A stretch of 7,904 nucleotides of DNA. Source: a bacterium (GTDB lineage: Bacteria > ARS69). Under the pieces are notes generated by a model. It saw only the letters and a program-made list of their open reading frames with translations, was not told where the DNA came from and did not search any database. The position numbers and the translations under genes were made by a program. Each line of letters opens with the position of its first letter. Positions within the stretch are counted from its first letter, which is position 1. The DNA lies in assembly GCA_025774865.1 (NCBI GenBank), contig JALGZO010000761.1, forward strand, positions 1 to 7,904, in the 5' to 3' direction. Below are positions 2,023 to 7,486 of this stretch, one piece after another.

Positions 2023-2919
2023 TCAGGTGCCGTGCTCCACGCGGCGCTCCAGCACTTCCCACCGGGCGTCGACGTCGCTCTGAATCCTGGCGATATGCTC
2101 GTCGTCGAGCTGACGAAACCGGCCCTGCTTCCGCAAGTAAGGTTCCACGGGATCACCCGGATGGTCCGCGGTGAAGCGCCACCGCTCCCCGTTCTCCACC
2201 TCCAGGAGCGGGAAGACGCGGTTGCGCACCGCCATGCGGGCCAGCTGGATCGAATCCTCGTCGGCGCTCTTCCAACCCGGCGGACAAGGGGACAGGATCT
2301 GGATGAACCGGGTACCGTGGATGCTCTTGGCCTTCGTGACCTTCTTCACGAGATCATCGGGATACGCGACGGAGGCGGTGGCGGCGTAGGGGATCCGGTG
2401 GGCGGCCAGGATAGCGATCATGTCCTTCTTCGGCCGGGTCTCGGGGCTCTCCGCCGGAGTCGTCGTGGTCCAGGCCCCCCACGGTGTGGAGGATGAGCGC
2501 TGGACCCCGGTGTTCATGTACGCCTCGTTGTCGTAGCAGAAGTAGATGATGTTCTCGTTTCTCTCGGCGGCGCCGCTGAGCGCCTGAATCCCGATGTCGA
2601 AGGTGCCGCCGTCCCCGGCCCAAGCCATGACGGTGGTGCTCGTCTGGCCGCGCACATCGAGGGCCGCCCGGATGCCGGACGCCGCCGCGGCCCCCGTTTC
2701 GAACGCCGTATGGAAGAGCGGAACCTTGAGCGACGACTGGGGAAACGGCCCGGCGATGATCGACCAGCAACAAGCGGGGAGAGTGACGATGGTGTCGGGG
2801 CCGAGGGCCTTGAGCACCAGGTTCATGGCGATGGGGGCACCGCAGCCCGGACAGGCGAGATGCCCGGAGGCGAGAAACTCTTCCCGGGGGATCCGTTCCT
2901 TGAGGTCGATCTGAGTCAT
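2023..2919 (-). CDS. porB: 2-oxoacid (pyruvate-type):acceptor oxidoreductase, beta subunit
   Basis: This 298-residue protein is the thiamine-diphosphate-binding beta subunit of a cytoplasmic 2-oxoacid oxidoreductase. The expected motifs are in order: CPGCG (C23, C26), C50/C51, the diphosphate/Mg motif GDGGT (102-106), DNEAYMNTG (130-138) followed by QRS, and C212 in SPCPPGW. In the family, C23, C26, C51 or C50, and C212 would ligate a [4Fe-4S] cluster. The NEAYMNTG-QRS-TP signature is typical of pyruvate enzymes rather than 2-oxoglutarate enzymes. Length is normal (about 290-330). The start at ATG 2919 overlaps the alpha-subunit stop as ATGA, with GGGAG seven bases upstream. It is the last gene of the operon. 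No terminator is visible in the 10 bases separating it from the convergent gene. Confidence 0.92.
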   Translation of the reverse strand: MTQIDLKERIPREEFLASGHLACPGCGAPIAMNLVLKALGPDTIVTLPACCWSIIAGPFPQSSLKVPLFHTAFETGAAAASGIRAALDVRGQTSTTVMAWAGDGGTFDIGIQALSGAAERNENIIYFCYDNEAYMNTGVQRSSSTPWGAWTTTTPAESPETRPKKDMIAILAAHRIPYAATASVAYPDDLVKKVTKAKSIHGTRFIQILSPCPPGWKSADEDSIQLARMAVRNRVFPLLEVENGERWRFTADHPGDPVEPYLRKQGRFRQLDDEHIARIQSDVDARWEVLERRVEHGT

Positions 2920-4025
2920 GCGTGGACTCCCAGCCAGATATCTTCCTTCTCCGGCGCGCCCGCCGTGCGCGTCTGCTCGACGATGTCGTGGATGAGCTCG
3001 GGAGTGACGTCCCGTCCGCCGAGCCCCACCACGTAACCGTAGAGGGCGGGCCTCCTCTCCGGAGCGAGGTCGTAGAGGGCCGAGCGGATCTCTTCCGCGA
3101 AGATGCCCCCATGACCGGGCGAGATGTTCCGGTCGAGGACCGCCACGCGCCGGGCCGGGGCCAAGGCCTCGCGCAGGAGGTCCGTCGGGAACGGACGGAA
3201 CATCTTGACCTTCACGAGCCCGACCGCCTCGCCTCGATCTCTCAAGGTGTTCACGACATAGCGGCTCGTGGAGGTGATCGTGCCTGACGTCACCAGAAGA
3301 ATCTCCGCGTCCTCGGTACGGTAGGTCTCGATCGGTCCGTAGCGACGACCCGTGAGCTGGCCCCACTCCTCGTCCAGCTCGACCATGACGCGGCGCGCTT
3401 CGTCCATGGCGTCCTGCTGGCGTAGCCGGATCTCCATGTACACATCCGGTCGCGTGAGAGCCCCGAACGCAATGGGGTCGTTCACGTCGAGCTTGTGCCG
3501 AGCCTCGCGGCGGGGCAGGAAGCTGTCGACGATCTCCTGGTCGGGGATGTCCACCGGTTCGGACGTATGGGAGAGATAGAACGCGTCGAGCACGAGCATC
3601 ACCGGCAAGTCGACGGCCTCGGCGAGCTTGAACGCCTGCACCGTGGTGTCCAGCACCTCTTGATTCGTCTCGCAGTAGAGCTGGATCCAGCCCGTGTCCC
3701 GCTGAGCGAGAGAATCGTTCTGGTCGGTCCAGATGTTCCAACCCGGCGCCATGGCCCGGTTGATGTCAGCCATGACGACGGGGAGCCTTCCGAGCGAAGC
3801 CCAGTGCAGCAGCTCGTGCATGAGCGCGAGTCCTTGCGAAGACGTGGCCGTGAACGTCCGCGCCCCCGCGGCCAACCGCGCCGCAAGCCGCCCCTTCGCG
3901 CACATCTCGGACAGTTCCTCGACGATCTGGGTCTGGGGGGTGATCGGATACGCGGAGATCACTTCGGCGCGGGCCAGCTGGACGCCCCAGGAGACGGCGT
4001 GGTTTCCGACGATGACCTTCTTCAC
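2916..4025 (-). CDS. porA: 2-oxoacid (pyruvate-type):acceptor oxidoreductase, alpha subunit, with an internal deletion
   Basis: A 369-residue alpha subunit. The start is GTG 4025, overlapping the upstream stop as GTGA, with GGGAGGG (4035-4029) just ahead. Family motifs are clear: AYPITPQT (25-32), FTATSSQGLALMHE (58-71), RLPVVMA (80-86), QRDTGWIQ (108-115), a DAFYLSHT segment near 147-154, KMFRPFP (274-280), and GLGGRDVTPE (334-343). Known homologues such as those of Pyrococcus and Thermotoga have about 43 residues between PITPQT and TATS, including the ESEHSA motif; here there are 26. About 17 residues are therefore absent around residues 45-56, and with them the glutamate that corresponds to the thiamine-activating Glu64 of Desulfovibrio africanus PFOR. 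The reading frame is intact. The enzyme may be impaired, catalytically altered, or the gap may be an assembly error. Confidence 0.88.
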   Translation of the reverse strand: MKKVIVGNHAVSWGVQLARAEVISAYPITPQTQIVEELSEMCAKGRLAARLAAGARTFTATSSQGLALMHELLHWASLGRLPVVMADINRAMAPGWNIWTDQNDSLAQRDTGWIQLYCETNQEVLDTTVQAFKLAEAVDLPVMLVLDAFYLSHTSEPVDIPDQEIVDSFLPRREARHKLDVNDPIAFGALTRPDVYMEIRLRQQDAMDEARRVMVELDEEWGQLTGRRYGPIETYRTEDAEILLVTSGTITSTSRYVVNTLRDRGEAVGLVKVKMFRPFPTDLLREALAPARRVAVLDRNISPGHGGIFAEEIRSALYDLAPERRPALYGYVVGLGGRDVTPELIHDIVEQTRTAGAPEKEDIWLGVHA

Positions 4026-5764
4026 AGTCCCTCCCGGGTCATTGCCATCGCACCCCGTGGGCACTCCGCATTGCACAGGCCGCACCCCTTGCAGTAGTCG
4101 TAGTCGATATCGAATCCCGAACCGTCTTCCCGACGGGAGATGGCCATGTCGGGGCAGAAGATCAGGCAGATCTCGCACTGGTTGCACACCGCGCAATTGA
4201 AGCAGCGACGCGCTTCGTCGAGGGCGTCCTGGTGAGAGAGTCCTTCGTTGACCTCGGCGAAGCTCGCACGGCTGCGGTCCGCGGAGAGAGAGCGGTCCGC
4301 ATGTTTCGGAATCCGGACGAAGTGGTCCAGGTTGAGGTCCTCGAGCGGCACGACTTCGTTGACGGAATTGTTGCGGTGAATCGGGTCGTCCCCGCGCCAC
4401 CGAGTGACACTGACGTTGCCCCGTGGCCCCAGGCGTAGGAGGGAGGGGTCGGCGCCGTTGGACTCCCCACGCCTCCTGCAGAGGAACATGTCGATTCCGA
4501 CGGCGGCCCGCTTGCCCGACCCTAACGCGTCGGCGATCGTATGGGGTTGCTCGACGATGTCGCCACCGGCAAAGAACCCGGGGCGTCGGGATTGGCCGAA
4601 GTCGTCCACGCGCACGGTCCAGTCGTCGTGGTCGACTTCCGGCGGAAACGTCCCGAACTGCGGTCCTTCGCCAATGGCGGTGAGCACGGTGTCGGCCGGG
4701 ACGAAGAACTCGCTTCCCTCGATCGGAACGGGCCGCCTCCTTCCGGAGGCATCGGGTTCGCCCAGACGCATCCTGATACAGTCGAGACCGGTGAGGCGGC
4801 CCTCTTCGGAGCGAACTGCAACCGGGGTGGCGAGGAACTCGAATTTGACGCCCTCGCGTTCCGCCTCGGCGACTTCCTCGTCGTTGGCCGGCATCTCGAT
4901 CCGGCTGCGTCGATAGAGAACGAGTGTCTCGGCACCGAGGCGGAGGCTCGACCGCGCACAGTCCATCGCCGTGTTGCCGCCTCCGACGACGACGACTCGT
5001 GCTCCGATTTCAGGCCGACTGCCGGAGTTCACTTCGCGGAGAAACGAGAGACCGGGGCGCAGGCCGTCCACGTCCTCGCCCTCGATTCGCAGGCCGAGGC
5101 TTCGGTGGACGCCGGTCGCGACGAACACTGCATCGAACCGATCGAGCTCGCTCCACGGAATGTCGGTTCCCACGCGAACGCCGCAGCGGAACACCACGCC
5201 GACGATTCGGATTCGTTCGATCTCGCGCGCCAAGACTTCCTTCGGCAGGCGATAGTCGGGGATGCCCAAGCGAAGCACGCCGCCCGGCTCGGGCGCAGCT
5301 TCGAACACGGTCACCCCGTAGCCCAACCGGGCGAGGTGGTAGGCGCAAGCCAGCCCGGCGGGACCGGAACCGATCACCGCGACCGTTTCCGGACGCGTAC
5401 GGGGCACGCGTCCCGGCCAACCCGCTGGCGCCAGATCCCCCAGCATCCGCTCGACCGCGTGGATCGCGACCGCGCCGTCGAACGACGCCCGGTGGCAGGC
5501 CCCTTCGCACGGGTGATAGCAGACGCGTCCGGTGGTGGCGGGCATGGGGTTCTCGCGGAGGACGAGATCGACGGCTTCATCGACCCGACCTTCGCGCAGA
5601 AGATTCATGTACCCCTCGATGTCGATTCCGACGGGGCAGCCTTCGGCACAGGGAGAAACGCGGTCGCGGTACATCGGGCGGATGTACTTCCACGAACCGG
5701 TCTTGTTGACGCGCGTGCTCAGACCTCCCGCCGCCATGGGGGGAGTCGGACGTGGGTCAGACAT
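4022..5764 (-). CDS. GltD-like FAD/NAD(P) oxidoreductase fused to a 2x[4Fe-4S] ferredoxin
   Basis: A 580-residue protein that probably links the oxidoreductase core to NAD(P). Residues about 35-110 form the GltD/DPD-type N-terminal iron-sulfur domain (C39, C43, C82, C86, C90). An FAD-binding GSGPAG lies at 132-137, an NAD(P)-binding GGGNTA at 261-266, YRRSR at 284-288 (suggesting NADPH, as in glutamate synthase small subunit), and the flavoprotein AGGD motif at 399-402. The C-terminus carries two ferredoxin motifs: C527-x2-C530-x2-C533-x3-C537-P and C558-x2-C561-x2-C564-x3-C568-P, with extra cysteines C521 and C524. It appears to merge the delta (ferredoxin) role with a PadH-like electron-transfer role. 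The ATG at 5764 was chosen because it has GAGGAG seven bases upstream and overlaps the gamma stop as ATGTCTGA. The frame is open further upstream, to 5983, only by reading through the gamma gene. Confidence 0.88.
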
Positions 5765-6332
5765 GGGCGATCTCCTCACCCGGGGCGCGTCGCACGAGGT
5801 CGGCCGCTTCTTGCGCCGCGCGGATGTTTTCTTCCGGCCGGGGGACATCTTCAGAAATGGCCTCGCAGACGGAATCGAGCCGGACGAGACCGGAGTCCAG
5901 GGCGAAGGCGCCCAGAATGGCGGTGTTGACGATCGGCTGCGTCTTGGAGCCCAGCCCGTGCTCACGCGCGATGGCGTTCGCATCCACCGTGGCGACGCGG
6001 TAACGCGCGGTCAGCCGAGTGTACTCTTGGGGGGACCGTTCCGAGTTGATCAGGATGGACCCGCCTGGCTTCAGGCCCGTCGTCACGTCTACGGCCTCGA
6101 CGAGGGTGGGGTCGAGGACGATGAGGTCGTCGGGGGCCGTAATCTCGCACCGCAGCAGAATGGGGCCGTCGCTCACCCGCAGGAATGCGGTGACCGGGGC
6201 ACCGCGGCGCTCCACCCCGAAGGCGGGAAACGACTGGACGGACTTCCCCTCCCGGAACATGGCGGCGGCCAACAGCTTCGAAGCGACGACCGCCCCTTGT
6301 CCTCCTCGTCCGTGGATCCGAAGCTCTCGCAA
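5757..6332 (-). CDS. porG: 2-oxoacid:acceptor oxidoreductase, gamma subunit
   Basis: A 191-residue gamma subunit, normal in length, and the first gene of the operon. The N-terminal glycine motif GRGGQG (8-13) and the segment [13 protein letters not shown] (35-47) are hallmarks of the family, which helps form the CoA-binding, catalytic side of the enzyme. The start codon is an uncommon TTG (6332-6330). It is supported by AGGAG at 6343-6339, six bases away, and by the [14 protein letters not shown]-terminus, which begins where the family begins. The 3' end overlaps the flavoprotein gene by eight bases (ATGTCTGA), so translation is probably coupled. No good sigma70 promoter was found between 6333 and 6467 on this strand. 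Confidence 0.9.
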
Positions 6333-6646: not shown

Positions 6647-7438
6647 CTATTCGATCTCGACCTCGGCCTCTTCGACGAGCACCGCGTAGCTGTAGCCCGC
6701 TCCGAAGTCCCGGTCGACCGCGACCACGCCGCGCACGATCACGAGATCGCCCACGGCCGACTCGCCGTTCGTGGTCACGGTGAGATCGTGGGTCCCCGCC
6801 TCGGGGTCGCCGCTGCCGTCCTGGATGTGCAGCCAGTTCCGCCCCAGGATGCCGGCGTTGTACTTCACGACCCGGCCCCGCACGACTACCTCGCTCGCGG
6901 CGAGCTCGCTGCGGCGAGCCCAGAGATCGGCCACTCGGTGGCCGCCCGCGGCCTTCTCGATGGAATCGAGGTCGAGGTCCGGGAGTGCTTTCCGCTCCTC
7001 GAATCCCGGAACGCCGGCGTGAGGATCGGCGCCGGGTTCGGAGCCGGTGGACGCGACGTGCGTCGGGCGCAACTCGCTGACGAAGTAGACGGCATCGAAC
7101 GTCCGACCGAGCGATTCGCTGTGGAATCCGTCCATCCGCATCTCGAGCCCGATTGCGATCTCGTCCCCGAGCGCGACCACGGTCTTCGGCCCGGCCGCCC
7201 ACACCTGCTCGCCGTCCCGCTCGAGCGCCACATAGGTGTAATTCCCAGCGTCCATCGTCTCGGTCACGTTGCCGACGAAACGTCCGGAGGGAACCTGCGA
7301 CTCGGGGGCTGCCTCGGCTTCGGACTGGGGGGCTGCCTCGGCCTCGGATCCGCCTCCCCGGGAGCAGGCGAGTGTCGACGGGAGTATCGCGATGAAGATC
7401 CATGAAAGGGCGGTCAGGCCGAGTCTCACGGGATGCAT
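6647..7438 (-). CDS. Putative lipoprotein with two OB-fold-like domains
   Basis: A 263-residue exported protein. Start ATG 7438 follows a purine-rich GAAGAG. This start gives a clean signal sequence: R5, a hydrophobic stretch at about 6-24, then C25 in STLAC, an acceptable though imperfect lipobox (Thr at -3). A low-complexity Ala/Glu/Pro linker (31-50) follows. Domain 1 (about 51-122) has GNVTETMDAGNYTYV, VWAAGP and GFHSESLGRTFDAVYF. Domain 2 (about 170-263) has VVKYNAGILGRNWLHIQDG, DLTVTTN and DFGAGYSYAVLVEEA. The second pattern matches conserved bacterial OB-fold-like proteins of unknown role; the first looks like a related repeat. Biochemical function is unknown. An earlier in-frame ATG at 7471 would add 11 residues and spoil the signal peptide. 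Confidence 0.8.
   Translation of the reverse strand: MHPVRLGLTALSWIFIAILPSTLACSRGGGSEAEAAPQSEAEAAPESQVPSGRFVGNVTETMDAGNYTYVALERDGEQVWAAGPKTVVALGDEIAIGLEMRMDGFHSESLGRTFDAVYFVSELRPTHVASTGSEPGADPHAGVPGFEERKALPDLDLDSIEKAAGGHRVADLWARRSELAASEVVVRGRVVKYNAGILGRNWLHIQDGSGDPEAGTHDLTVTTNGESAVGDLVIVRGVVAVDRDFGAGYSYAVLVEEAEVEIE
7304..7351 (-). repeat. 24-bp tandem duplication in the lipoprotein linker
   Basis: Two adjacent 24-base units (7304-7327 and 7328-7351) share 20 of their first 21 bases and encode two near-identical Ser-Glu-Ala-Glu-Ala-Ala-Pro-type octapeptides just after the lipid-attachment cysteine. Such units expand or contract by slippage and would change only the tether length. Confidence 0.75.
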
Positions 7439-7486
7439 GGTCTCTTCTTTCTGAGTTGGGGGCGAGAGCACTCTGGAAATCGTCTC

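Follow-up and report, generated by a model that had tools for sequence, protein, structure and literature searches.

Locus and family of the short alpha subunit

Does a 2-oxoacid:ferredoxin oxidoreductase alpha subunit that lacks the segment with the thiamine-activating glutamate represent an enzyme working in an unusual way, a recently broken gene or an error of assembly? The question is raised by a single copy in the window, i.e. the whole stretch of DNA analysed here, which is one complete contig of 7904 bp (C765, genome G000). Its source bin is a MAG of 785 contigs with a completeness of 92.65% and a contamination of 8.3%, and the tetranucleotide composition of the window lies inside the range of its own bin. 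The minus strand carries a four-gene operon encoding gamma, an FAD/NAD(P)-ferredoxin fusion, alpha and beta:

5757..6332, minus strand: gamma subunit, PorC-like, 191 aa
4022..5764, minus strand: GltD-like FAD/NAD(P) subunit fused to a PorD-type 4Fe-4S ferredoxin domain, 580 aa
2916..4025, minus strand: alpha subunit, PorA-like, GTG start, 369 aa, stop at 2916-2918, domains POR_N and PFOR_II
3873..3874: breakpoint of the missing 51 bp, from alignment to relatives, which read F/Y-IKVESEHSAMAACIGAS here
2023..2919, minus strand: beta subunit, PorB-like, 298 aa, TPP_enzyme_C, gap-free against 77 relatives

The alpha gene is coupled to both neighbours by stop/start overlaps, GTGA with the upstream gene and ATGA with the beta gene. 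The same gene order is kept in Gemmatimonadota and Eisenbacteria MAGs, and the fusion of the delta ferredoxin to the GltD-like FAD/NAD(P) protein (4022-5764) is conserved in these relatives as well; it suggests coupling to NAD(P) rather than to free ferredoxin. Two further reading frames lie outside the operon: a 570-aa ORF at 300-2012 on the plus strand, with a weak helix-turn-helix match, a cysteine-rich C-terminus and otherwise no Pfam or NCBIfam family, and a 274-aa lipoprotein-like ORF at 6647-7471 on the minus strand, for which neither a Pfam/NCBIfam match nor a relative in 12 other genomes tested was found.

The alpha subunit has the make-up of a PorA-type protein, with PF01855 (POR_N, 208 bits) and PF17147 (PFOR_II, 96 bits) in one chain and gamma, ferredoxin and beta subunits in the operon. 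The best NCBIfam model for the window and its sisters is NF040682 (PorA_Arch), with 420 bits for the window and 478 and 486 bits for full-length sisters, all of which miss the equivalog cut-off of 550. With the PadG model the window scores 285 bits against a cut-off of 700, which does not qualify it as a phenylglyoxylate dehydrogenase. The operon clusters with Eisenbacteria/Gemmatimonadota relatives, whereas the bin itself is placed in a small phylum apart from these, and none of the four further genomes from its family yielded an ortholog at E 1e-60; misbinning or horizontal transfer of the C765 operon may account for this. When an intact second alpha copy was sought in the same bin, the best other matches were paralogues with 34% and 29% identity. 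Intact POR_N paralogues that carry the glutamate occur in the bin, namely a fused single-chain PFOR (C635), C744 and C540.

A lone gap of 17 codons

Compared with its relatives the alpha gene lacks exactly 17 codons, i.e. 51 bp, in frame. On the coding strand the breakpoint falls between GCGGCGCGGTT and GGCCGCGGGGG, i.e. between plus-strand coordinates 3874 and 3873, and the junction is clean when set against relatives (GCGGCGCGGTT running directly into GGCCGCG), with a microhomology of 0-1 base. The minus-strand translation reads PITPQT-QIVEELSEMCAKGRLAARLAAGARTF-TATS; the 26 residues between the two motifs are those counted in an earlier sequence-only reading, and its expectation of about 43 matches the 43 residues of the relatives. 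Measured over C..G..FTATSS, the stretch has 22 residues in the window and 39-40 in nearly all of 100 aligned relatives, the exceptions being two rows clipped by local alignment and L018, which has a foldback insertion. In this PorA-like sequence (L018:1395-1644, G044:C77) a palindrome without a spacer, whose 125-nt arms are 98% complementary, follows directly after ESEHS and takes the place of about ten codons; the palindrome is a foldback lesion or an assembly chimera. Match spans of the closest relatives are longer by exactly 51 bp (1155 bp in L029 and L030 versus 1104), and among 87 aligned alpha subunits only that of the window exceeds 4 gap columns at conserved positions, with a gap of 17; elsewhere, lone gaps reach 3-4 columns at most. 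The in-frame loss of about 51 bases proposed earlier is thus confirmed both by the gap and by the match spans.

The short form was found nowhere else. About 100 relatives, including 23 at 62-74% identity, hold the missing segment at a near-fixed length, and phylum searches of Eisenbacteria (47 genomes), Gemmatimonadota (395) and a smaller group (7) did not yield the short form: all matches covering the segment carry the extra length, while some split matches start downstream of it and are uninformative. Neither set contains a sister lineage with the short form, and the loss is not shared across a lineage. Homologues combining the short form with an alternative conserved glutamate, which the sequence-only reading had named as evidence that would overturn it, were searched for and none was found. 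The junction DNA was likewise not found in viral contigs. As no relative has the same gap, the window almost certainly holds either a gene broken in this one copy or a mistake of assembly.

Loss of the glutamate and of its strand and helix

The second glutamate of the ESEHSA segment aligns to residue 63 of the 1b0p chain, i.e. to residue 64 of D. africanus PFOR when the initiator Met is counted, which we take to be the residue named Glu64 from its structure; the earlier claim that the lost part includes this glutamate therefore holds. Via a KorA relative, the same position aligns to residue 294 of the alpha subunit of Sulfolobus tokodaii StOFOR1. Glu294 of this enzyme is reported to form a hydrogen bond to N1' of the aminopyrimidine and to be important in ylide formation (PMC5020499). 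Every other POR_N paralogue of the bin that spans the region keeps the glutamate, including distant IorA- and KorA-like proteins. In the window alpha the ThDP-activating glutamate is missing together with the whole [ED]xE segment, and a replacement acidic residue is not evident in the alpha subunit: the junction itself, RLAAGARTF, contains none.

Structure models were computed with AlphaFold2 as single chains. In the closest full-length sister (mean pLDDT 86.4) the segment is modelled as a strand (50-53) and a helix (57-69). The window alpha, modelled with the same relatives, reaches a pLDDT of 78.3 with the drop concentrated at residues 51-100, which is no more than supporting evidence, as AlphaFold2 confidence is not a measure of stability. 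Compared with the alpha chain of M. acetivorans PFOR, the window model gives an rmsd of 3.5 A and the sister model one of 2.2 A. The models show that, along with the catalytic glutamate, the lesion takes one strand and one helix out of the ThDP pyrimidine domain. Without this glutamate the protein would not activate thiamine diphosphate at N1', and the cofactor domain of the short alpha would probably be unable to fold; given both, the enzyme as written should be inactive, i.e. dead. The gene is a PorA-type member by descent, but its product as written should be unable to act as one.

The surroundings are intact, as had been stated from the sequence alone: outside the segment the window alpha retains every column that is invariant in 27 relatives, the gene overlaps are preserved, and beta, gamma and the FAD/ferredoxin protein show no lone gaps in their alignments. 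MAG copies of this operon show further lone lesions among relatives of the FAD/ferredoxin protein: a gap of 12 residues that is peculiar to L102, and a stop codon within the frame of L055. Branch lengths and pN/pS give alpha no higher rate of evolution than beta, gamma or the FAD subunit. The pN/pS values to sister L032 are 0.135/0.515 for alpha, 0.124/0.506 for beta and 0.124/0.496 for gamma, with synonymous sites near saturation, which makes the age limit on the lesion loose. For the lineage as a whole there is no sign that selection has been relaxed. Since the other invariant columns, the partners, the junctions and the substitution rates are all normal, the lesion is young relative to the divergence, and very young at that, or it is not biological.

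Origin of the lesion and comparison with known enzymes

We are highly confident that the gene is an ordinary PorA-type alpha with a lone in-frame 51-bp lesion, arisen as an artefact or as a young deletion, and not a new enzyme type. This view is carried by the position of the glutamate, the unique gap, the intact remainder of the operon, the normal rates and the fragmented MAG. Two observations run against it. The number of lost bases is divisible by three and the frame is otherwise intact, which is what one would expect if a working protein were under selection (by chance, 1/3), and the junction offers no repeat that would make a collapse in assembly easy or account for a deletion by slippage. 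Either the lesion arose as an artefact in the assembly or library of a MAG that is fragmented and of low quality, or it is a deletion too young for further decay. Even chances are given to the artefact: the segment would be complete in the living organism, and its 51 bp would have dropped out when the library was amplified, contigs were joined or a gap was closed across flanks rich in GC. The fragmentation into 785 contigs fits such an origin, as do the position of the junction in the top 0.3-0.7% of the contig's 40-60-base windows by GC, the foldback in the same segment of another genome (L018) and the lack of decay elsewhere in the operon. However, only the flanks are GC-rich, the missing segment being of average GC in the relatives, and besides the preserved frame there is no repeat long enough to mislead a k-mer assembler. 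The lack of a repeat at the junction and its microhomology of 0-1 base speak against a simple de Bruijn collapse. Slippage or collapse between direct repeats was rejected, as no repeat family lies near the junction, and so was a hairpin-bounded deletion, as the flanks fold no better than shuffles.

With a likelihood a little short of even, the deletion is real, young and present in the sampled population, and it inactivates the operon. Loss of operon function may be tolerated because the bin has genes for further 2-oxoacid oxidoreductases, a single-chain PFOR among them; the glutamate-bearing paralogues C635, C744 and C540 in the same bin are consistent with this, selection that is normal in all other respects agrees with a very recent event, and the in-frame length and the lack of a repeat to collapse on also favour a real deletion. 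On the other hand, a population consensus without a second hit in four genes leaves a narrow time window, and at a bin contamination of 8.3% the paralogues may belong to another cell than C765, with sequence composition speaking neither for nor against a shared cell. A real deletion would make the gene a real but ordinary pseudogene. We consider it very improbable that the enzyme keeps its operon and its other active-site motifs and works without the glutamate and its strand-helix unit, perhaps with altered chemistry. The loss is in frame, the remaining motifs are all intact, and a natural glutamate-free ThDP family exists in glyoxylate carboligase; yet no homologue has the same form, the junction supplies no acid, and strand and helix are gone in the model. 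A short form that truly existed and was active would call into question the rule by which ThDP enzymes depend on the N1' glutamate within a complete pyrimidine domain. The three readings offered from the sequence thus fared differently: a young inactivating lesion and an assembly collapse both stand, whereas an unusual working enzyme is opposed by the lack of any sharer, the lack of a compensating acid and the missing strand and helix. In about 270 operon gene copies in MAGs, lone gaps of at least 10 residues occur twice; at this rate, scanning many MAG windows yields such cases without special biology. Where one fragmented MAG alone shows a gap of this kind in a catalytic stretch, the reads should be checked before a biological meaning is given to it.

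Glyoxylate carboligase resembles the short alpha in being a natural ThDP enzyme without the canonical glutamate. In that family, Val at position 51 takes the place of the glutamate throughout (PMC3534367). This is a point replacement in an intact fold, whereas the window alpha is one isolated sequence from which a whole segment is gone; as the carboligase fold is intact and its change family-wide, it is no model for a singleton without strand and helix. The PadEFGHI phenylglyoxylate:acceptor oxidoreductase matches in its alpha, beta, gamma and ferredoxin parts and in having an FAD/NAD(P) subunit in the operon, but the window alpha falls far under the PadG cut-off. With the PorABCD/VorABCD-type 2-oxoacid:ferredoxin oxidoreductases (NF040682, NF006232, NF006233) the window shares domains, operon partners and the invariant residues outside the segment; it differs from them in the 17 codons missing from alpha and in the fusion of its delta ferredoxin to the GltD-like FAD/NAD(P) subunit.
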